A DNA stretch of 64,000 nt, taken from Brachyhypopomus gauderio. Lineage: Eukaryota > Chordata > Actinopteri > Gymnotiformes > Hypopomidae. The DNA lies in the NCBI RefSeq assembly GCF_052324685.1, contig NC_135220.1:2524716-2588715 (forward strand). The letters are read 5' to 3'. Under the pieces are notes generated by a model. The model made no database searches and had not been told where the DNA came from. It saw only the letters and a program-made list of their open reading frames with translations. The translations under genes were made by a program, and so were the position numbers. Below, one piece after another: positions 479 to 15,886 of this stretch (the first letter of the stretch is position 1; each line of letters begins with the position of its first letter).

Positions 479-3400
479 ATGAACTTTGAGGGTCTGGATC
501 CTGGCTTGGGCGAGTATTCGCCCGGCCTGCATGGAAGTCTGGAGCCCGGCTTGGAGTCTGCCCTTGATTCGCGACTTGACCCTGCATTGCTTCAAGGAGT
601 GGAGCTGGACCCCGAGGCCATGGCGGTCCCCGTGTCCGAGTCGGTGCACCTCCTGGAGGGAATGTACTCCGAGCTGCATAGCGTGGCTGCGGAAGTCGGC
701 ATCCCCGTCACCTCGACGCACTTCGACCTGCAGGAAGAGCTTCTGTGGATGGGGAACCACAGGGTATGACTACACACTCACCACAAATAAGGATGTCCAT
801 TGTTATCACTGCGACCGGTGTTGTGAAATGAGGCAGTGTTATCTGACCGTTCGTGAGGTTTCTAAGAGACACTGGGAAACCATGTGGAAAACGTCGGAAG
901 GTACATCACGTGTGATTAGAGTACCTTTGAAATTCAGTTCATGAATGAATGCTGTAAGTTAAGTGACGTCATTCAAAGTGTCCTGGTCGTTCTGTGTTAT
1001 TCACTGTGGTGAGTGTGAATGTGTGTGTTTCCCTTTTTTTTTCTCCCACAGGGGCATGCAAGCTCCTTCTTTGGTCCAACGATGGGTCGCTATTCATCTT
1101 TCCAGGTGCATCCGACCGACGACGTCCGGCACATGCAGAGCTTGGACACGGGCGTCCTGTTTCTGACCAAGAGTAACCTCAAGTGCCTCACGCGCGGGGG
1201 TCTCGTCATGTTCGACTATCCGTCAGTTTCACAAAAGCGTCAAACTGCATGAGATGTTTGCTCTATGAGTGTGAAGTGCACAGTGCCTTATGCAAAACAC
1301 AGTAAAAAAAAAAAAGAAACAAGATGCACATTTCTGTTAAGTTGCTAGTTAATATTGTGTGGGCAGAAATATGTCACTGGCTGATGTGTGTGTGTGTGTG
1401 TCCATGCTCCAGAATGGAAGAAGGTGCTGACATGCACTGTTTGTTGCTGACTGGCAACAACAACCTTCTCCTGGGGGGCCTGCAAAACTATGTGGCTGAG
1501 GTGGACCTGAACACTGTGCAGGAGACGCAGAAAGTACGATCAACCTAGACAGAATGAATGAAAGAATTACATGTACAGTTAAATGCATTAAACACACTGA
1601 GATGTGTACTTAATGAACAGTGAGTGTAGGTGCAACTTAACATTTTACATTCTATGGCTGAAAATGCTGTACGTACATGCCCTATTAATTACTACCATAT
1701 TCATTTGTGTGCCGTATTCATCATTTTTGGGTGAATACTTTTCATAAATATCTTATAACACTGATTTTGTATTATTTAAATACTTTACATGACTGTGTGG
1801 TTTCCGTGCATGAATATGTGTTTGTTCTTTGATGGACTCTCTTGCTGACCTGTGTCTTGTGACGTAGTTCACGGTGGAGGTCCCAGGCGTGGCTATCATG
1901 AGACAGTCTAGCCGGTTCTTCTTCTGTGGTCACACGTCTGGCAAAGTAAGTAGAAACTGAAACAGGAGCTTGCACATAATGCTTTGAGAATGGTCCCCAA
2001 AGGACTGCATAGAATTGAGAATTGTAACAAAATAGGTGGGATTTCCATGGTTTTGGTCTAGTTACCTCCAGAATTTTACAGAGTTTATTTTCGTATTTTT
2101 AATTCATACAGTAAAATGCCAGTGTTTTTTCATCTCCTGCTGTCGTTTCTCATGCCTCTTCTGTTCTCGTGTGACAGGTGTCTCTGCGAGACCTGCGCAC
2201 ATTTAAACCGGAGCACGAGTTTGACGCCTTCTCCGGCAGCCTGTCTGATTTCGACGTTCACGGGAATCTGCTAGCGGCCTGTGGCTTCTCGAGCCGCGGG
2301 CTCAGCGGTCTGTCGTGCGACCGGTTCCTCATGGTGTACGACCTGCGCATGATGCGGGCGGTCACACCACTGCAGGTGCATGTGGACCCCCTGTTTCTCC
2401 GCTTCATCCCCACCTACACCTCTCGCCTGGCCATCATCTCCCAGACAGGTGAGAAGCGTGTCCGGCTCCCCAGATGTGGTCTGCTGGGATGACGCACTCG
2501 TGCCCAATTAGCTTCTTTCTTCCATGTTTGTGCGAAGCTGCCGACTTCTGCGATGTCCGTTAGCACCTGCGTGGCTCACAGGAGCACGCTTGTATGCTGG
2601 TATGGTTCAAGCTTTGCACGGCATCGAATTTCTAAATTGTCCAGTGTCTCCCCCTGCAGGCCAATGTCAGTTCTGCGAGCCCACAGGCCTGGCTAGCCTG
2701 GCTGATGTCTTCCACGTGAACACGGTGGGCCAGTTGATCATGAGCTTCGACGTGTCATCCAGCAAGCAAGCCCTGGCCTTTGGAGACTCAGGCGGTTGTG
2801 TGCACCTGTGGTCCAGTGCCCCAGAGGTCTCCTTCAATGATTACTCCCGAGAGACAGAACTGGCTCTCCCCTGTCTGGTGGACTCTCTGCCCGAGCTGGA
2901 CTGGAACCATGAACTGGTGCCTCTGTCTCTGGTGCCCATGCCCCTCACCAGTACCGAGCCCTTGCTATCGGACTGGACCAGTAACCTCGCCATCCCCCGT
3001 CCCAGGTACATCTCATCCACACACAGCTTAGAGGTGTGTGTGTGTGTCTGTGTCTGTGTCTGTCTGTGAGTGTGTGTGTAAAGGTCGCAAACTACTTCTT
3101 AGTTTGTTAATATTTAAGATCGCCCAAACTACACCTGGCTCTTTTGCTGTCCATGTTTGCTCTCTGCTGCCCACTAGTGGCTGAGAGTGCTCATACAGTG
3201 CAACGTTTCTCTCCGTTCCTAGACGAGCGCCACCAGTGGACCCAGAGATCCTGAGGACGATGAAGACAGTTGGCTTTATTGGATATGCCCCGAACCCTCG
3301 CACACGCCCCAGAAATCAGGTGCCCAGTTTCATTCATCTCTTACATATTATTAGTTTATATGTTATTTCTTAATATTCACTGCCTGCCTATATCACCTGG

Positions 3401-5081
3401 AAATCAGCAATCAGTTTCTTTAAAAGATATAAATGATCATTTAATTTGTTTGTTTAATATCGCTATACTCATTCATTATATTTAAGAGATTAAATCTCAT
3501 AATTGTTAAGCAGCTGTTTGCGCTTAACTGTATGTGTGTTTGTCAGGTCCCCTACAAAATAAAGGAGGTGGAGCTTGAGTATGACAGCTACAACCAAGTT
3601 CCCGAGTCTCCCATTGGCCGAGACGAGGAGCCCCATCTTTACATGGTGCCAAAGAAGTACAGGAAGGTATCTGATTGTGGAGCTGTCATGCTGACTGTGT
3701 GCCACAGCCCTCATTTCATTACTGAGCTCTGGTGTCAGGGCATCAGTGACGTGGTTCATCATTGTCCCTGTTCCCGCAAATCTCATTCAACTCGTGAGTT
3801 TACTATGGAGATTGTAATGACCCGAATCAGGTGTCTGACCGCAGGGCGTGTTGGGTGTTTTGTGATCTTGATGGATGGCTTGTTGCTGTGGTGTAATGTC
3901 AGAGTGCAGAGTATAACTGTGCTTATGTCCACCAGGTCACCATCAAGTACTCCAAACTTGGTCTAGAGGATTTTGACTTCAAGCATTACAACAGAACGCT
4001 GTTTGCCGGTCTGGAGCCCCACATACCCAACGCTTACTGTAACTGTATGATCCAGGTGGGTGCCAGGGTCGTTTGTGTTGTTGAACAGTTACTTAAAAGT
4101 TGTTAAGGTAAAGTAAGAAAGAAAAGTAATGTTATGAAAGTAAAGTAAAAACATGATGTAAAAAGTAATGTGAACAGAGGAATGAAAAAAGTAATGCAGA
4201 TTTGTGTTCTTTTGCCATCCTTGACCCGAGGAACTGCCCAGAAAAGTTTTACAGTCTTCCCCAAAATCACTTTAGAATTGTGTCACTTCGTGAGGGATGT
4301 TGGTTAATGGTTAATTGGCTTGTGTTTGATGTCCAGGTCTTGTACTTCCTGGAGCCAATTCGATGCCTGGTGCAGAATCACCTGTGTCAGAAGGAGTTCT
4401 GCTTGGCCTGTGAGCTGGGGTTTCTCTTTCACATGCTGGACCTGAGTCGAGGAGATCCCTGTCAGGTGTGACACATCGCTGACACATCATACTGTCCAAT
4501 CGGGGAGTTTTTTTGGTTTGTTGTCTTCCAGGGCATATCATTTTACTGTCCTTGCCCCAAACCTAGTAACACTGGCCACTGCCGAGACATTGTGTCATAT
4601 TCGTTGAATGTTCCAGAATATTCCGGCTTGGCGTTAGCGCAGAAAGTCTGCAGAAATGATATTGTGTTTCATGTCCAGGCCAGTAATTTCCTACGAGCCT
4701 TCCGGACCATTCCAGAAGCGTCGGCGCTGGGTCTGATCCTAGCCGACTCGGATGAGCAGACGGGCAAGGCCAGGCTGGGCCGTCTCATCCAGAGCTGGAA
4801 CCGCTTCATCCTCACGCAGCTGCACCAAGAGACCCTGGAGCAGGAAGGACCCCAGGCCTACAGGGGCAGGTGAGAGGACCCTGGCCACAATACTGCACAG
4901 GTGGCCCTCGTGTTTAAAAATCCTGTGCTGTGGGTCACTTCTTCACCAGCCTCTGCCCACAGGCATCGTGAGAGGTGTCGGAAACCACCCGAGAACATCA
5001 TCTCTGTTTTGTGATTTGAATGGATGCATTCAAAGCGTGTCCTGAAGTGTTGCAACCTAGTCAAAGCCACCTGACACTTTG

Positions 5082-5118
<37 letters not shown>

Positions 5119-6019
5119 TGCTCCACAGTGCGCTCGGCTCATCGGGGGAGTCCGTGATTGGCCGGCTGTTTGGTTGCGAGGTGGAGAACAGCAGTCTGTG
5201 TCGCTGTGGGAAGGAGACGGTCCGGTCCTCGCTCACCCTCCTCTTCACCATGCACTACCCCGAGCACAGCTCCCTCGGTTAGAACACACGCTGCTGTCCC
5301 CCAGTGCACCACGGGGGAAGGGACAGGAGTGTTAAAGTCTTTATGAGTAGACGAAGACCAGCAGTATATCCAGGCACAGCACCTTAGAGCAGAAGTCAGA
5401 CTTTACATCAGCTGTGTTCAGCCCCACTTCCCGTCATTCCCTGTATTTTCTTGTAATCCCCTTATTTGCCGTGAGTGACTTGTAACACATTAAGAACTGT
5501 TATTATATTATATTACAGTATTAAGTTATTGATTGGTGGTGTTTTATAGACAAGGTAATCCAGGAATATGACTTCACTGAGATCCTGAAGAAGAGTATCT
5601 GTCTGGAGCAGAGCACACAAGCCTGGTGTGAAAACTGTGAGAAGTACCAGCCCACAGTAAGTCCATCCGTCTCTCTCAGCCGCTTCCTCACAAGTGTCCA
5701 ATGCCTGTTTTTCGTGTATGATTATGAACTCTTTCTTGTCTTGTAGGGAGGCAAAATTCAAAATGGGTTCCAGCAGTACTTTGTATAACTTTGCAGTTTC
5801 TGCTATTTTGCTACTGATATTCGAGATGTGTGTGTGTGTGTGTGTGTATTTGTGCACAGGTGCAGACGAGAAACATCCGTTGTCTGCCTGACGTACTGGT
5901 GATAAACTGTGAGGTGAACAGCGTCAAAGAGGCAGAGTTCTGGAAGACCCAAGCAGAGGTCAGCCCTGCACACACCAAATCTACACACACACACACACAC
6001 ACCCACACACACACACCAA

Positions 6020-6094
<75 letters not shown>

Positions 6095-6098
6095 AAAT

Positions 6099-6145
<47 letters not shown>

Positions 6146-6390
6146 CTTTCTCTCAACACATCTACACAGACCAAATCTACACACCCAACACATCTACACA
6201 CACTACATCTACACACACACTGCATCTCCACACACTGCATCTCGACATTCTCATCTTGTCGCGTTTCACGGCTGGACTGAGCAGATGACTGTAGGTCATA
6301 GTTGTTGTCTCTGCCCTCTGTATTTGCTGTTGTGCCTATTAGTCTGTTTTAACCCCCCCGTGTGTCTTCATGTGCTGTTTTACCCCCACC

Positions 6391-6463
<73 letters not shown>

Positions 6464-9400
6464 TTTGCAGTATGCGTTCAACAAGGCTCTGAAGAAGGAA
6501 GCTGCAGAACCCCCAAAGCCCAGGGATCCCCTTCCATCGGAGTGGTGTGTAGAGTAAGAGTCACCTCCCCCGCATTCCACTACCAACTCACCTGTGCTTC
6601 TCTCACCTGTGCTCAACTCACCTGTGCTTCTCTCACCTGTGCTTCTCTCACCTGTGCTTATCTCACCTGTGCTTCTCTCACCTGTGCTTCTCTCACCTGT
6701 GCTCATCTCACCTGTGCTCATCTCACCTGTGCTTATCTCACCTGTGTTTCTCTCACCTGTGCTTCTCACCTGTGTTTCTCTCACCTGTGCTTATCTCACC
6801 TGTGCTTCTCTCACCTGTGCTCATCTCACCTGTGCTTATCTCACCTGTGTTTCTCTCACCTGTGATTCTCACCTGTGCTTCTCTCACCTGTGCTTCTCTC
6901 ACCTGTGCTTATCTCACCTGTGCTTCTCTCACCTGTGCTCATCTCACCTGTGCTTATCTCACCTGTGTTTCTCTCACCTGTGCTTCTCTCACCTGTGCTT
7001 CTCTCACCTGTGTTTCTCTCACCTGTGTTTCTCTCACCTGTGCTTCTCACCTGTGCTTCTCTCACCTGTGCTTCTCTCACCTGTGCTTCTCTCACCTGTG
7101 TTTCTCTCACCTGTGCTTATCTCACCTGTGTTTCTCTCACCTGTGTTTCTCTCACCTGTGCTGACGTGTTGTCTGTTTTGTGATGTTTTGGCTACACAGC
7201 TTTTATTTGTTTCTTTTTGTAAAATGCCTACATAGTTACCAAACAATGTACAAAAGCTACCAAAGTTACCACAGTTACAAACAACATAAGGAAGCTGTAT
7301 CGCTTTTCCCGCCACATTCCGCTCTTTTATCCGTCCCCCGCATTCATCTGTGTGATCCTTCGTCTTTTCCATTTCCCATGGCGTGAATAGGGACGAGCTG
7401 GGGGGCGTGGAGGGCCTGACCTTTGACACGTGCGCCGAGGACCTGAGGCACGTGTGGATCCCTCTGTGTGTGAGAATGCGCATCAGTAAGAGCCACGGCC
7501 TGGAGGTGTGCAGCTGGCCCGAGGCCGAAGAGGTGAGGCCGCTAGCGCGCAGAAGCGCCCCCTGCTGGCTGTAGGGAAACGTACTGCATTCATTGCATTT
7601 ACATTTATATTTACATTTTGTGCATTTAGCAGACATTCGTATTCAGAGTGACTCACAAAGTGTTTTGCATTTGTTCACAGAATGCATCCTAGATAGTAAC
7701 ATAGATAGGTCAGAATCCAAGATACCCATGACCCAGACTGCTACTAAACTACAGGAATCAAAGAAGCACAAATAACCAAACAGATAAACATTCAATTTAA
7801 GAATGAGGAAGTGTTATTGAGTGCTCTTGAGTTAGTGGTCATTTAAGTACTCAACAGGTGACTTTTTGCAGGAATAACATTCAAACTTTGTGCTTCATAT
7901 CTTTTATCAGACTTTAATGGTATACAAGTGTGTATAAATCTGACAGAGCACCTTTTGTAGCTGGTTTTGTTACACTTTGTTACAACTCTCTGCTTGCTCT
8001 TTGCACCTTGGTCTTGTGAGCGGATTGGCTGAGACCAAAATGTGGTGTCTGTGTTGACTTGTGTGTGACTGTATAGAGTAGAAACACTGTTAGTTAGCTC
8101 AGGCTCCCGGGCAGACGTGGTAGATTAAGTGTTGGTGAATACTGTGTTCTTGTCGTAGATTAAGTGTTGGTGAATACTGTGTTCTTGTCGTAGATTAAGT
8201 GTTGGTGAATACTGTGTTCTTGTCGTAGATTAAGTGTTGGTGAATACTGTGTTCTTGTCGTAGTTAAGTGTTGGTGAATACTGTGTTCTTGTCGTAGTTA
8301 AGTGTTGGTGAATACTGTGTTCTTGTCGTAGATTAAGTGTTGGTGAATACTGTGTTCTTGTCGTAGATTAAGTGTTGGTGAATACTGTGTTCTTGTCGTA
8401 GATTAAGTGTTGGTGAATACTGTGTTCTTGTCGTAGATTAAGTGTTGGTGAATACTGTGTTCTTGTCGTAGATTAAGTGTTGGTGAATACTGTGTTCTTG
8501 TCGTAGATTAAGTGTTGGTGAATACTGTGTTCTTGTCGTAGATTAAGTGTTGGTGAATACTGTGTTCTTGTCGTAGATTAAGTGTTGGTGAATACTGTGT
8601 TCTTGTCGTAGTTAAGTGTTGGTGAATACTGTGTTCTTGTCGTAGATTAAGTGTTGTTGAATACTGTGTTCTTGTCGTAGATTAAGTGTTGGTGAATACT
8701 GTGTTCTTGTCGTAGATTAAGTGTTGGTGAATACTGTGTTCTTGTCGTAGATTAAGTGTTGGTGAATACTGTGTTCTTGTCGTAGTTAAGTGTTGGTGAA
8801 TACTGTGTTCTTGTCGTAGTTAAGTGCGGAGGACGAGGCGGGCGGCGCTGCCATCTACGACCTGGTGGTCACGGTGCCCCACATCCTGGATGCTCGCACG
8901 GGGGGGAATCTTGTGGCCCATATCAAAGTGGGCGAGACGTACCACCAGAGGAAAGAGGTCAAACCGCGTGGCTTCGCCAACTTTCAGCTCAGGATGAACT
9001 TGGTTTTTTAATTCTAAGTGGATTTAATGAAAAGCCTTATTATTCTATGCTTGATCTGAAAGTGAGAGCTGGGTGGAAATGAATACACATTGGCCTCGAA
9101 TGTGTGTCTGTTCACTGCAGTAACCCCGTAATTGTGTTCCTGTCCAGGGAGTAACACATCAGCAGTGGTACCTCTTTAATGACTTCTTGATCGAGCCCAT
9201 TGACAAGGTAAAGATGGACGCGCACGTTAGCTCGAATTCAGCTGATGTTTCTGCTCCTCTCTGTTTTTGCTGAGAAAGTCTTTATGTGTCTCCCAGACTG
9301 AAGCAGCTCAATTTGACGTGAACTGGAAGGTGCCTGCTATAATTTACTACGCCAAGAGGAACTACCACTCCAGATATGACCTGCGCAGTAAGACCTCACA

Positions 9401-11672
9401 AGCTCAAGTGTTTCCATTTTGTGCATATAATAATAATAATAACATTTTATTGGTAATGCGCCTTTCTGGACACCCAAGGACACTGTACACATAAGATACA
9501 ATTAAAAATACAGATAGATATGCATAAAAATATAGGATAACACTACAATTTACAAATCTCATCCATAAGCCACTTTAAAAAGATGAGTTTTAAGTCCTGC
9601 TTTAAAAATATCTAAAGATGAACAAGCCCGTATGTTAGACAGTGTTTAATGTTAATCCGGCGTGTTTGGTCACTGTCAGACTTCGTTCCTGCATGTTCCT
9701 CCACAGTTAAGAACCCTATTGAAGCCAGTGTGCTGCTCACCGAGGCTTCGCTTGCTCGAAAACAGAGGAAGAGTCATGCCACCTTCATCCCCCTGATGGT
9801 CAGTGAGATGCCCCAGCCAGGAGACCTCGTGGGCCTGGATGCAGAGTTTGTCACGCTCAATCAGGTGGGTGAAGAAAACGGACCTCCGCCTGGGCCTTCC
9901 ATACATCTCACAACCACCATTTGTCAGAATTACACAGGACATTGTTCAGACAAGCAGATTTGCAATAACTGGGTCGTTGCCTGTTTAGTGGCCCTCAGCC
10001 ATTACAGCCATTAAACCATTGATCTATTCCACCAATCGTATGTGCCTGTGACCAAACAGGAAGAGGCAGAGCTTCGGAGTGACGGCACCAAGTCAACCAT
10101 TAAGCCCAGTCAGATGTCTGTGGCTCGCATCACCTGTGTGAGAGGACAGGGGCCTAATGAGGGCGTTCCTTTCATTGATGACTACATTTCAACACAAGAG
10201 CAGGTGAGGCTTCCTCCTGCCTGTACTTTAGTGTAGAGGGAGATTGTGAATGCATGTGTAGATGTGTGTGTGAGAGAGCATTATGTCATGGATTTGGAAA
10301 TATTTTAAATATAGGTATAAATATAATATTGGTATAATAAAGTATAAAAAATTTCTTCTAAACCAGCTTACCTTTCATTGAATATTCCTGTAATACAGAT
10401 CTAAAAGCAAGAATATATGAGGATATATCATAACCTAACCTGTCCAAATTTTTCATCCTTAATTGCATAGCATGAAAGGAGCGTACAGTATATATAAAGT
10501 TCTACACAGTGGAGATAATAGTTGTCTTTCACAAACTCAGCCTGTGTGCTGTCTACCAGGTGGTTGACTACTTGACCCAGTACTCGGGCATCAAACCTGG
10601 GGACCTGGATGCCAAGATTTCTTCGAAACACTTGACCACTCTGAAGTCCACTTACCTCAAGCTCCGCTTCCTCATCGACACTGGAGTACGGTTCGTTGGC
10701 CATGGGCTACAGAAGGACTTCCGGGTCATTAACCTGTTGGTGGGTTCTCTTCTCGGGTCAGATAAGGACCCTTGTGCTTTGTGAAGGGCACTGCTACCTT
10801 TAGAGTAGTTTCCCGGTCTCAGTACAAAGACTGTGGAACGTTGGGGGTGCGTCTGGGGTGGAAGGGTGGCACCATATAAATTTGTTCCCTGCACGTAGGT
10901 TCTGAAGGACCAGGTGATCGACACCGTCTACCTCTTCCACATGCCCCGTAAAAGGATGATCTCGCTGCGTTTCCTTGCCTGGTTCTTCCTCGGTGGGTGC
11001 TTTGCTTTGTCACACCTGTCTCTCACAGATTCTCTGTGTTCGTATAGAGCCATTGCTCTCGCTGTCACACAACAGGATCGCTCCACTTCTTCATTATCGA
11101 TTCATTGACATTTTGGACGGTGCTCTTGTTCAGATCTAAACATTCAGAGTGAGACCCACGACAGTATAGAAGATGCCCGGACCGCCCTGCAGCTGTACAG
11201 GAAATACTTGGAGCTGAGCCGTGCGGGACAGGACGAGTTCCGGAAGGTTCTGAAGGGGCTGTATGAAAAGGGCCGTAAGCTGGACTGGAAGGTGCCGGAG
11301 ACTGACTCCACAGATGGGCAGGGAAGCCCGAAAGGTACGAGACCACCACCCGAACACGACAGGGAACTTGTCGAAGGTGTCCAAGGAGATGAAGGTTCTT
11401 TGGAGTATTGTAAGAAATGTGTTTGTCCATTTTTAAAAAACATATAGCGATGTGTAGTATCACTTTGTAAATTACAATACATGCCAATACAGTATTATAT
11501 TCTGTGCAAGGCATTGCAAATGTTGCTTTGATTTATTAAAATCATGTTTCCGTACTGTGAAAATGAAGTGCTGGCTGTAAAGTGAGCTCTGTTTGAGCGC
11601 CACCGATTCACCTCACTGTTGTTCATGTGTTTACCAGGTGCTGCTGTGTTTCCCTCAGTGTTGGGCTTGTGA
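479..11672 (+). CDS. pan2: PAN2, catalytic subunit of the PAN2-PAN3 poly(A) deadenylase (25 coding exons)
   Basis: PAN2 removes mRNA poly(A) tails in the cytoplasm together with PAN3. Exons: 479-763, 1052-1221, 1413-1533, 1868-1945, 2178-2448, 2660-3005, 3223-3319, 3547-3666, 3936-4055, 4337-4465, 4679-4869, 5129-5277, 5550-5656, 5860-5958, 6471-6544, 7391-7532, 8820-8957, 9148-9207, 9297-9387, 9707-9864, 10060-10203, 10560-10739, 10899-10992, 11134-11334, 11638-11672. They sum to 3600 nt (1199 residues; vertebrate PAN2 is about 1200) with every phase matching. Order: N-terminal WD40-like propeller (exons 1-6), linker, pseudo-ubiquitin-hydrolase region (exons 9-19), and a C-terminal DEDDh exonuclease. 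The nuclease motifs LDAEFV (exon 20), GHGLQKDF (exon 22) and THDSIEDAR (exon 24) are present, so it looks active. A second ATG at 476 lies directly upstream; 479 fits the family start MNFEGLDPG. Exon 17 has a weak donor (gag|gtcaaa) and its acceptor lies in a minisatellite. Confidence 0.95.
5983..6140. repeat. (CA)n microsatellite in pan2 intron 14
   Basis: Interrupted (CA)n tract of about 158 bp, broken by short CAAATC steps, just downstream of exon 14 (ends 5958). Open frames reading HTHT or VCVC through it are artefacts of the repeat. Confidence 0.95.
6393..6463. repeat. (GT)n microsatellite next to the exon 15 acceptor of pan2
   Basis: About 70 bp of pure (GT)n ending directly in the polypyrimidine/acceptor tctttgcag of exon 15 (starts 6471). 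Length changes here would alter the branch point to acceptor context. Confidence 0.95.
6587..7161. repeat. 15-bp minisatellite in pan2 intron 15 (about 38 units)
   Basis: Tandem units of consensus CTCACCTGTGCTTCT, with variants ending in TTAT, TCAT or TTTCT and a few units shortened by 3 bp. The array sits between exon 15 (ends 6544) and exon 16 (starts 7391). Every unit holds the E-box CACCTG. On the minus strand every unit reads CAGGTGAG, a consensus-like 5' splice site. The long Ser-Pro-Val-Leu open frames are translations of the repeat. Confidence 0.95.
7576..7870. repeat. Fish dispersed-repeat fragment in pan2 intron 16
   Basis: Contains the motif around GCATTTAGCAGACATTCGTA followed by a CAGAGTGACTCACAA-like end. 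A closer match to the usual fish form (GGCATTTAGCAGACGCTCTT) occurs at 30486-30535. This is a degenerate dispersed repeat; boundaries are uncertain. The rest of the intron up to 8123 shows nothing I can name. Confidence 0.6.
8124..8819. repeat. 35-bp minisatellite running up to pan2 exon 17 (20 units)
   Basis: Twenty direct units, sixteen of 35 bp and four of 34 bp (16x35 + 4x34 = 696 bp). A unit starts ATTAAGTGTTGGTGAATACT and ends TGTTCTTGTCGTAG. The array stops exactly at the exon 17 boundary, so the final GTAG is the acceptor dinucleotide context of exon 17. The first bases of the exon (TTAAGTG) are also the start of each unit, so each unit carries a copy of the intron-exon junction. One unit near 8655 has a G to T change (GTTGTTG). 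Confidence 0.95.
9425..9645. repeat. Degraded retroelement tail in pan2 intron 19
   Basis: Begins with (AAT)n, then a stretch resembling the complement of a fish L2-type 3' end (ATTTTATTGGTAATGCGCC, ACCCAAGGACACTGTACA). The same motif appears in the opposite orientation at the 3' end of the L2 copy near 42530-42580. Old and coding-incompetent. Confidence 0.6.
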
Positions 11673-13007: not shown

Positions 13008-15886
13008 TTAACCATCATATGAAAGGCAAAAGTCCATCTTGATACAATCTTTTAGTTTGAAAATTACAGAGTCTATTAAGTCTTGAATGATGGTTTCAGA
13101 TGTCAAGTTCTCACAAAGTTCATTCAGCATTCCATCTGAAGCTGCACTGTGAACATCTTGTATGAGAGGTTGATCGTTCTGAAGAATCTCTACTAGTTTG
13201 TCAAAAACCATCTCAACAATGTCCTCAGCTATGGACGTAAAGGGGATACAGGACTGGCTGAACTTTATTTGTCCGACATCACTGGAATTCATGTCCGCAG
13301 CTTCTGTTTCATCAACCTTCTGAAAAGAAGTGCACGTTAAGCTCAACGCTAGCTGATGAATAATTCTGCACACAGATTCCACTAAATCTCTCGATCTCCT
13401 TAGAGAACCAAAAACTATAGGGACACAAGGACAGATCTGTGTCCTCAACTGTTGAATGCAGACATCTTTTCGGCACTGAACAGTCTGGAATTTTTCTTTT
13501 AAACCTGCCAGCAAAACTGGGAGTTGATGGACATGCAGGGCATCTGACTCGCTGGGAGAACCCGTTCGTTCTGTTTTCAAAATGTGTGCCACATGTTGGT
13601 CAGCAGAACTGGGAAAGAAGGTTTTACGTTTTTGGAAAACGGGTGCTTCAATGTGTTTTGTGTTTTTGATAAAAGTTGGACTAATAGAAGAACGGTAGTT
13701 GGGCTTTGTCTTTAAATCCTTGAGCAAATCCTTTTGCCTAGTTAAATCATCTTGATAGTGCTTCACATGTGAAAGTATAGTTGATGTGACTGGCAGTGTT
13801 TCAGTAGTCTTCTCTGGTCTCACAGGAGGCAACTTAAACCTTGTGCTTGACCCTGACATGCCTTTACTGACAGATGATTTGGATGGCTTATCTCTGTCAA
13901 GTTTATCCTGAAAATCTTCCACTGAGACATACAGAACATGCTGCTGATTCCTTTTGTATGCTTCAGTATGGGTTATGTTTACGGTAGACTTTTTGCTACT
14001 GAAATGGTGAAGGTCTGAACATACTAACTCAGATTCCACCCGATGCTCCTTACAAGAACTTGTTGAGCTCTCATTCTCTCTATTCAAAACTGTTTGTAAG
14101 TTGTCAAGAATAACATTCTCATCTGATACTACTTCCCTGCTTCCAGCTTGTACTGTTTGAGCTATTATACTTTCATGTCCATCATTTAACACCATTAATT
14201 TTTCAAAAGTTGATTCAATGAGCTGCAGGGCTAGGGAGTCTAATTTTGAATTTGGCTGCCAGATGCCTGGATGTGTGTTTTCTGTATGTGGCACAAGTGG
14301 TGGAAAGGAATCAGCCAGACTCTCACCAATTCTAGGAATCATTTTAGCATCAGAATAGGCTGTTGTGTGTTTTCCAAATATATTGTTATTGACACTTTCT
14401 ATTCCTTTTGATTTGGGAGAGATACTAAGTGAGGAGAATGTCCTGAGCTCTTCAGAGGACCTGCTGGCAGGACCACAGCCTGACGGGGCACACTTTTGCT
14501 CTGCTTGTGTAGAGGACTCTAGAGTTCCCTGGTTTGTGGGTAATTCATCATGCTTTATTTTCTTGTCCTCTTGTAGTCTTTCAAGACCATCATCATTTGA
14601 ATTTAAGAAGACATTTGTTATTTCCAGCATAATGGTTTTGATAATGGCTACTGTGAAATTGTTAATTTTCGAATCCATGCTTTCATGGCGTCCTGCAGAG
14701 GAAGTCAGTAATGGTCCGATTGTCCAGTTGCTGTAGCCCCCTAAAAGGCCACACACCTTATGCATATTTGATTTGCATGGACTTATTCGAGTCGCCGGCC
14801 GTGAATTTGTTCCAGCTGAAGGCAGGACCCAGCTTTGGCGAGCATGCCAGTCATTCTCTCCATCAGGCCTGCCTTTGTGTTCAGGCATCACACTGTGTGA
14901 AATGGGTTTCTCCGGTTCGGGATCTGCATGTGTCTCTGAAACCCCCAATCCTGTGTATGATTGGCACCCTTCACTCTGTAGAGTCTTTTTTGGAGAGATA
15001 TACAGTGTTGATGAGCCGTGAGTTGACGTGTGGTCACAGATGTTACTTTGATTATATACTACAGGAAACTGTGTTGGTAAGATTCTCTTAAGAGACAAAA
15101 ATGAGAACACATTATAATAAGATTAGATCATTAGCTTTCTGGAGATGTTCATCCACACCATGTCCGTAATACTCACTTCAGATCCCTGCACACCTATGCT
15201 GGTTTCTTTAGTACTGTACAGTAGTTCAGTAATATCATCACCACCTGCAAATATTAATGCAGAATATTAATACATGTGTATATTCATACAGTTTTAGTAG
15301 CAAACAAAAAAACAACTGTAGTCCTTATACACAATAGTTATCTTGCTTACATCTAAGGAAAAAAATTATTCTTGCCCATAATTGCATTGGATCAGTTGTA
15401 CCGTTAATCCGTTAATTATTTAACCTAACAAAACAACAGTTCCTCATAAATATCTTACCTAATGTTACTTTGAACACAAGTCTGTGCATCATATTTTGTT
15501 GGAGGACTATTTGTTTCTTTATCATTCGTATCGCCTCCTTTCTGTCATTCAGCTCCTTTAAGCTCTGTTCATATATGGTGCGTTTGTTTCTGTAATAATA
15601 CTGTAACTACAGGGAAGACCAGGGTTATCATCTCAGTGGTGTGGCAATTTACATGGCACTACTAATGCATGATCCAGATATATTCCTTCACAGCACATGA
15701 GGTGGTGGACACACTCTGAGTTGAGACTAAAACCTTTTTATGTCTCTCCTCTGTAGCCCTGTCTCTTTTTTTCTGTCGGTTGAGTTCCAGTTCCAGCATC
15801 TCACGAATGTCTTGTCGTAAAGCATCCTCCCTTTCTTCCCACAGTTTGCTTGAAATTTCAGACGACTGGTTCATGTCATAGATAGT
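13008..15886 (-). CDS. Unrecognised gene: short coiled coil plus long disordered C-terminal exon (5' end incomplete)
   Basis: Four phase-consistent exons on the minus strand: 15734-15886, 15459-15606, 15177-15244 and 13008-15086 (2448 nt; 815 codons and a stop). The first two encode charged helices (KLWEEREDALRQDIREMLEL; YEQSLKELNDRKEAIRMIKK) typical of a coiled coil. The last exon, 692 residues, is Ser/Thr-rich and low in structure. It contains scattered amphipathic helices such as VEMVFDKLVEILQN and LQLIESTFEKLMVL. Such helices recall fibrous-sheath/AKAP-like proteins (FSIP2), but I cannot confirm a family. The first listed exon opens with TIYDMNQ in frame, so an upstream exon probably exists; alternatively ATG 15874 is the start. 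The donor of that exon (aag|gtttta) is weak. An X-box at 19499 lies upstream and would fit a ciliary gene. Confidence 0.6.

Follow-up and report, generated by a model that had tools for sequence, protein, structure and literature searches.

The pan2 gene of the gymnotiform fish Brachyhypopomus gauderio raises a question about 3′ splice site choice: where a minisatellite repeats the border between intron 16 and exon 17, so that equal acceptors stand in a row, which copy is joined to exon 16, and how did the row come about? The window analyzed here comprises 64,000 nucleotides of contig NC_135220.1 (RefSeq assembly GCF_052324685.1, positions 2,524,716–2,588,715 of the forward strand), and all coordinates below refer to it. 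Exon ends of pan2 were picked with human PAN2 as a guide and then checked by alignment to 9qtu_C, a PAN2 chain that we take to be human. The parts of the model that matter here are as follows.

479–11672, plus strand: pan2 coding region, 25 coding exons encoding 1202 aa, hand-made model with GT–AG introns.
7391–7532, plus strand: coding exon 16, followed by the donor GAG/gtgagg.
8820–8957, plus strand: coding exon 17, 138 nt, starting TTA AGT GCG, followed by the donor GAG/gtcaaa and aligned to 9qtu_C.

In this model, 1202 codons stay open across the 25 coding exons, so that the exactly 1200 codons summed for the whole gene by the first-pass annotation were slightly off; its 138-nt exon 17 entered in phase 0 holds. 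The predicted protein carries PAN2_N (PF20770, 1.1e-167), UCH_1 (PF13423, 1.1e-97) and RNase_T (PF00929, 5.5e-16) by Pfam. The joint presence of the N-terminal, UCH_1 and exonuclease domains identifies it as the PAN2 deadenylase. 9qtu_C matches it over its full length (2133 bits, residues 1–1202). The first residue of exon 17 is number 837. Intron 16 is 626 nt long when counted to the first full acceptor and 1287 nt when counted to the last; intron 17 measures 190 nt. Downstream of pan2, a 700-aa open reading frame lies on the minus strand at 13008–15110.

The repeat itself was delimited with Tandem Repeats Finder and by cutting into units.

8120–8826, plus strand: minisatellite, mirage-type by its anatomy, 20 units of 34–35 bp at the end of pan2 intron 16.
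8120–8123, plus strand: GTAG marking the array's left edge, a poor acceptor (−4.1 bits) that lacks a preceding pyrimidine tract.
8786–8819, plus strand: last unit, 34 bp, with the tract TGTGTTCTTGTCG and the acceptor TAG.

Tandem Repeats Finder reports a period of 35, 20.3 copies and 98% matches, and its limits, 8120–8826, replace the 8124–8823 given at first pass. Cutting at TTAAGTG yields 20 units running from 8125 to 8819, after which exon 17 contributes its own TTAAGTG at 8820; the 20-unit minisatellite claimed at the exon 17 acceptor is thereby borne out, with the junction lying inside the repeated stretch. Fifteen units are 35 bp long and end in GTAGA, and five are 34 bp long and end in GTAG. 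Apart from this presence or absence of an A after GTAG, the units differ by a single G-to-T substitution (unit at 8647). Each consists of 27–28 nt resembling an intron end plus the TTAAGTG of exon 17, and the right end of the array is formed by these seven exonic bases, the first 7 nt of the exon. The near identity of the units and their ±A variants suggest recent turnover of the array.

The unit appears private to this junction when up to three mismatches are allowed. At that threshold, it has 20 matches in the 796.5-Mb assembly, all 20 inside the pan2 array, and its best match elsewhere in the window reaches 20 of 34 letters, compared with 21–23 in three shuffles; both results argue against an origin of the unit from a dispersed repeat or transposon. 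Because the unit matches only at the pan2 locus, the array would have arisen in place. A genome-wide search with the C-terminal 366 aa found no second pan2 copy or haplotig (8 matches, all at pan2). Nor did a query of exon 16 plus the intron reveal a second copy, since the matches listed outside the locus cover only a dispersed repeat. Intron 16 holds a piece of dispersed repeat at 7587–7866, probably a SINE-like element, with at least 49 other matches, of which 39 main ones show 75–88% identity (40 of 1553 candidates were scored).

Acceptors, named here by the first base after AG, were scored with a small matrix built from the 23 other acceptors of our own pan2 exon model rather than with a trained splice predictor. 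Twenty acceptors, from 8159 to 8820, share one common 20-base intronic sequence and score 4.65 bits each, the real one included, which upholds the earlier description of about 20 near-identical candidate acceptors in a row; only the tractless left-edge site, 8124, falls away from them. By leave-one-out scoring, the 23 other pan2 acceptors range from 0.61 to 14.54 bits, 18 above 4.65 and five below; among 276 other intronic AGs, 5.4% score at least as high. Branch-point candidates were scanned in the last two units, and the remaining units have the same letters except for one base. The last unit offers TTAAG (A at 8789, 30 nt before AG) and GTGAA (A at 8799, 20 nt before AG). Both fit the branch-point consensus only partly, whereas a full-score candidate is present at 15 of the 23 other pan2 acceptors. 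Judged by sequence, every unit is a whole yet mediocre 3′ splice site.

A donor-like TTG/GTGAAT is also present 10–11 nt past the acceptor, at 3.56 bits within a range of 0.75–11.24 for the 24 real pan2 donors. This score comes from the first two units, and the unit at 8647 carries one altered base at this site. Recursive splicing through it was considered and set aside: the 10 or 11 nt left behind would throw off the reading frame, and the ~24 nt separating neighboring units fall below a workable intron length. A role for RNA structure in the array was likewise set aside; two units fold somewhat better than shuffles (z = −2.27, 6 of 200), with z-scores of −1.06 for one unit (24 of 200) and −0.12 for an array stretch with the exon (85 of 200).

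The reading frames separate these equal sites. All GTAG sites upstream of 8820 (n = 20) were translated, and none leaves an intact frame; only 8820 yields the full 1202-aa protein, so the claim that the last unit carries the acceptor keeping pan2 intact stands. According to the first-pass annotation, an earlier 35-bp unit stops after four codons; of the 20 sites, 16 do so, three stop after 12–15 codons and the nearest, 8786, after 67. Its further statement that only the last acceptor gives the correct frame needs qualification: 8820 alone avoids a stop, but eight of the 20 upstream sites add a multiple of three, and all eight still run into one. Among the in-unit AAG sites, 8791 was translated and also leads to a premature stop. 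Use of the upstream GTAG sites would extend the exon to 172–799 nt and place the stops 896–1747 nt before the last junction. Under the usual 50-nt rule, the products of upstream acceptors are therefore candidates for nonsense-mediated decay. Skipping of exon 17 preserves the frame and would give 1156 aa.

Repeated intron–exon boundaries of this kind are known from amphioxus as mirage minisatellites, found in Adh3 and in the globins BflGb6 and BflGb9, with troponin C added, and imperfect PGBD5 repeats likened to mirages, in the PGBD5 paper (PMC3902484); the parts of PMC3087553 and PMC3902484 that describe them report regular splicing. Two anatomical features indicate that the pan2 array is a mirage-type minisatellite. 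It lies across an intron–exon boundary with both intronic and exonic bases in its unit, and it retains AG and GT signals, namely the 20 acceptors at 4.65 bits and the donor-like TTG/GTGAAT. As in the amphioxus mirages described in those parts of PMC3087553 and PMC3902484, many units keep splice signals and the genuine border counts among the copies.

Among known mirages, the array is unusual in having 20 almost identical units and a vertebrate host. In the descriptions available for amphioxus, BflGb6 has three or six units of 150–160 bp with 81–100% identity, in contrast to 20 almost identical units of 34–35 bp here, and Adh3 units span 10–72 bp; the pan2 unit includes only seven exonic bases. 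Length polymorphism belongs to the amphioxus mirages as described there, whereas the pan2 array is known from one assembly. A repeat at intron 4/exon 5 of rainbow trout irak3, as far as its description goes, is a similar case, with four copies in genomic records that contain gaps. In the passages that concern them, Sparus MSTN-2, prawn lectins and one intron review deal with a different phenomenon. Turri et al. reportedly described, in 1995, a minisatellite with multiple splice donors, probably in the gene 6-16/G1P3, in keeping with its citation by a paper on G1P3. That minisatellite also multiplies a splice site, but on the donor side, whereas the pan2 array does so on the acceptor side. In the literature searched, with most subscription journals outside its scope, we found no report of a pan2 minisatellite. 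In a vertebrate, the array appears to be a long and young case of a repeated intron–exon border.

We hold with moderate confidence that the array is a tolerated mirage-type minisatellite that arose by duplication at the 3′ end of intron 16 and that the last acceptor is the favored one. The founding event would have been a tandem duplication of a unit comprising a possible branch point, the pyrimidine tract, TAG and the first seven exon bases, which slippage or unequal exchange would then have expanded to 20 nearly identical units. Productive splicing would pair exon 16 with 8820, the last acceptor, mostly bypassing the upstream copies; transcripts that used one of those would meet an early stop and be degraded, and the array would be retained as nearly harmless, without a function.

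Published splicing data bear on this choice in two ways. According to section 9 of Carranza et al. (PMC9225289), sites more than 12–20 nt apart are recognized separately rather than by late AG choice; given a spacing of 34–35 nt, each pan2 unit would be recognized through a tract and a branch point of its own. The same section reports that, for competing human 3′ splice sites at least 20 nt apart, the upstream one is preferred overall, less strongly under exon definition; this general preference counts against the tolerated-minisatellite reading, as it would divert some transcripts to earlier units. Within that source, the upstream preference diminishes when the introns on either side are both long, and an LS class behaves like exon definition. 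The pan2 pair of introns 16 and 17 (1287 or 626 nt, and 190 nt) would fall into the LS class. GC content is 62% for exon 17 but 37% for the array, and with this contrast the last acceptor should be favored, because the exon it adjoins is GC-rich, 138 nt long and followed by a donor, as in exon definition. Splicing is expected to leak to some extent into the last few upstream units. Skipping of exon 17 could occur as well, its acceptor lying in the weaker range and its branch-point candidates being partial.

The junction itself may have had either of two origins: a duplication of the native border, as above, or an intronic array that replaced the native exon start. In the second scenario, the array would first have grown within intron 16 and then been joined to the exon by a deletion, with TTA AGT and a repeat-borne acceptor taking the place of the native acceptor and the first few codons of exon 17. 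We regard this as a serious though less likely alternative. TTA is used once among the 143 leucine codons of pan2, precisely as the first codon of exon 17, in a gene whose third-position GC is 0.71 (0.78 in exon 17), and at precisely this place 9qtu_C is longer by four residues (fish LS----AEDEAGG versus MQWGPARAEEEHG). Both are weak signs, a single codon and a single four-residue gap in a poorly conserved stretch. The gap may, moreover, be old in fishes, and the second stretches of other long PAN2 chains begin at residue 845 or later, whereas exon 17 starts at 837. The 20.3 units of the array, with the partial unit lying at the exon, would also suit a take-over of the boundary. Minisatellites often start from short direct repeats, however, and such a start would leave a partial copy too.

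A second alternative gives the upstream units work to do: they would be used often, array length would set the share of productive pan2 transcripts, and copy number would tune PAN2 dose. The first-pass annotation had suggested that copy-number polymorphism could shift the balance between productive pan2 transcripts and those bound for nonsense-mediated decay. The other 19 full acceptors do share the intronic sequence of the real one, each of them leads to a stop well ahead of the final junction, and the overall preference for upstream sites in the human data of PMC9225289 points the same way. Against this, the amphioxus mirages are reported without splicing disturbance in the corresponding parts of PMC3087553 and PMC3902484, and extended exons of 172–799 nt should be disfavored under exon definition, as judged from the abstract of PMC9225289. 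We therefore consider frequent upstream use unlikely. Its heritable form, in which each extra unit would act as one more poison acceptor and lower productive pan2, with the faulty products cleared by mRNA decay, seems just as improbable. Very improbable is a true acceptor slightly downstream, at 8825, 8832 or 8838, with the array end merely resembling a junction: 8832 and 8838 keep the frame but score −2.55 and 0.02 bits, 8825 is out of frame at 1.01 bits, against 4.65 for 8820, and the TAG at 8817–8819 closes upstream starts in the exon 17 frame.

How surprising is an array at an acceptor? Minisatellite density was sampled in 20 stretches of 10 kb (200 kb in total) at typed, nonrandom positions on contigs C1–C15, 1–9 Mb from the contig start; Tandem Repeats Finder rows outside the stated limits were removed and overlapping rows merged before counting. 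With units of 10–100 bp, at least five copies and 80% matches, the 200 kb contain 24 arrays, in 11 of the 20 stretches and covering 8.2% of bases. Eight arrays have units of 20–70 bp, at least 10 copies and 90% matches, and three are as long and clean as the pan2 array (at least 15 copies, 95%). One sampled stretch (L008) holds a single array of 132.8 copies over 4.2 kb. From this 200-kb sample, the genome looks unusually rich in minisatellites.

Assuming an even spread, a 14-nt stretch at the acceptor in which an array end would have to fall, and a round number of 200,000 acceptors, the three array classes lead to 336, 112 or 42 acceptors expected to be met by an array end; the expected share of genes with 24 acceptors, like pan2, is 4.0%, 1.3% or 0.5%. 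An acceptor of at least 4.65 bits occurs in six of 48 strand readings of the 24 sampled consensus units. The pan2 array is thus beyond chance as a repeat, and its meeting with an acceptor hardly so: by this rough estimate, an array at an acceptor is uncommon for one gene and expected in the genome. Dense minisatellites genome-wide would thus explain the meeting without selection.

Pan2 contains further simple repeats next to coding exon 15. In the intron upstream of exon 16, a second minisatellite at 6587–7162 (15-bp unit CTCACCTGTGCTTCT, 38.8 copies) starts 34 nt past the end of coding exon 15, and the units shown contain, on the minus strand, CAGGTGAG, a consensus-like donor. The last base of a perfect (GT)35 run at 6393–6462 lies 9 nt upstream of the start of coding exon 15 (6471), and the run stands in the place of the pyrimidine tract.

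The locus puts on record a long mirage-type array in a vertebrate, and many more are expected in the same genome. Its 20 equal acceptors, in their natural place and separable by product length, constitute a natural test of 3′ splice site choice, addressing whether the spliceosome picks the site nearest across the intron or the one nearest across the exon. If array length varied with pan2 output, an mRNA-decay gene would be shown to have a splicing VNTR.
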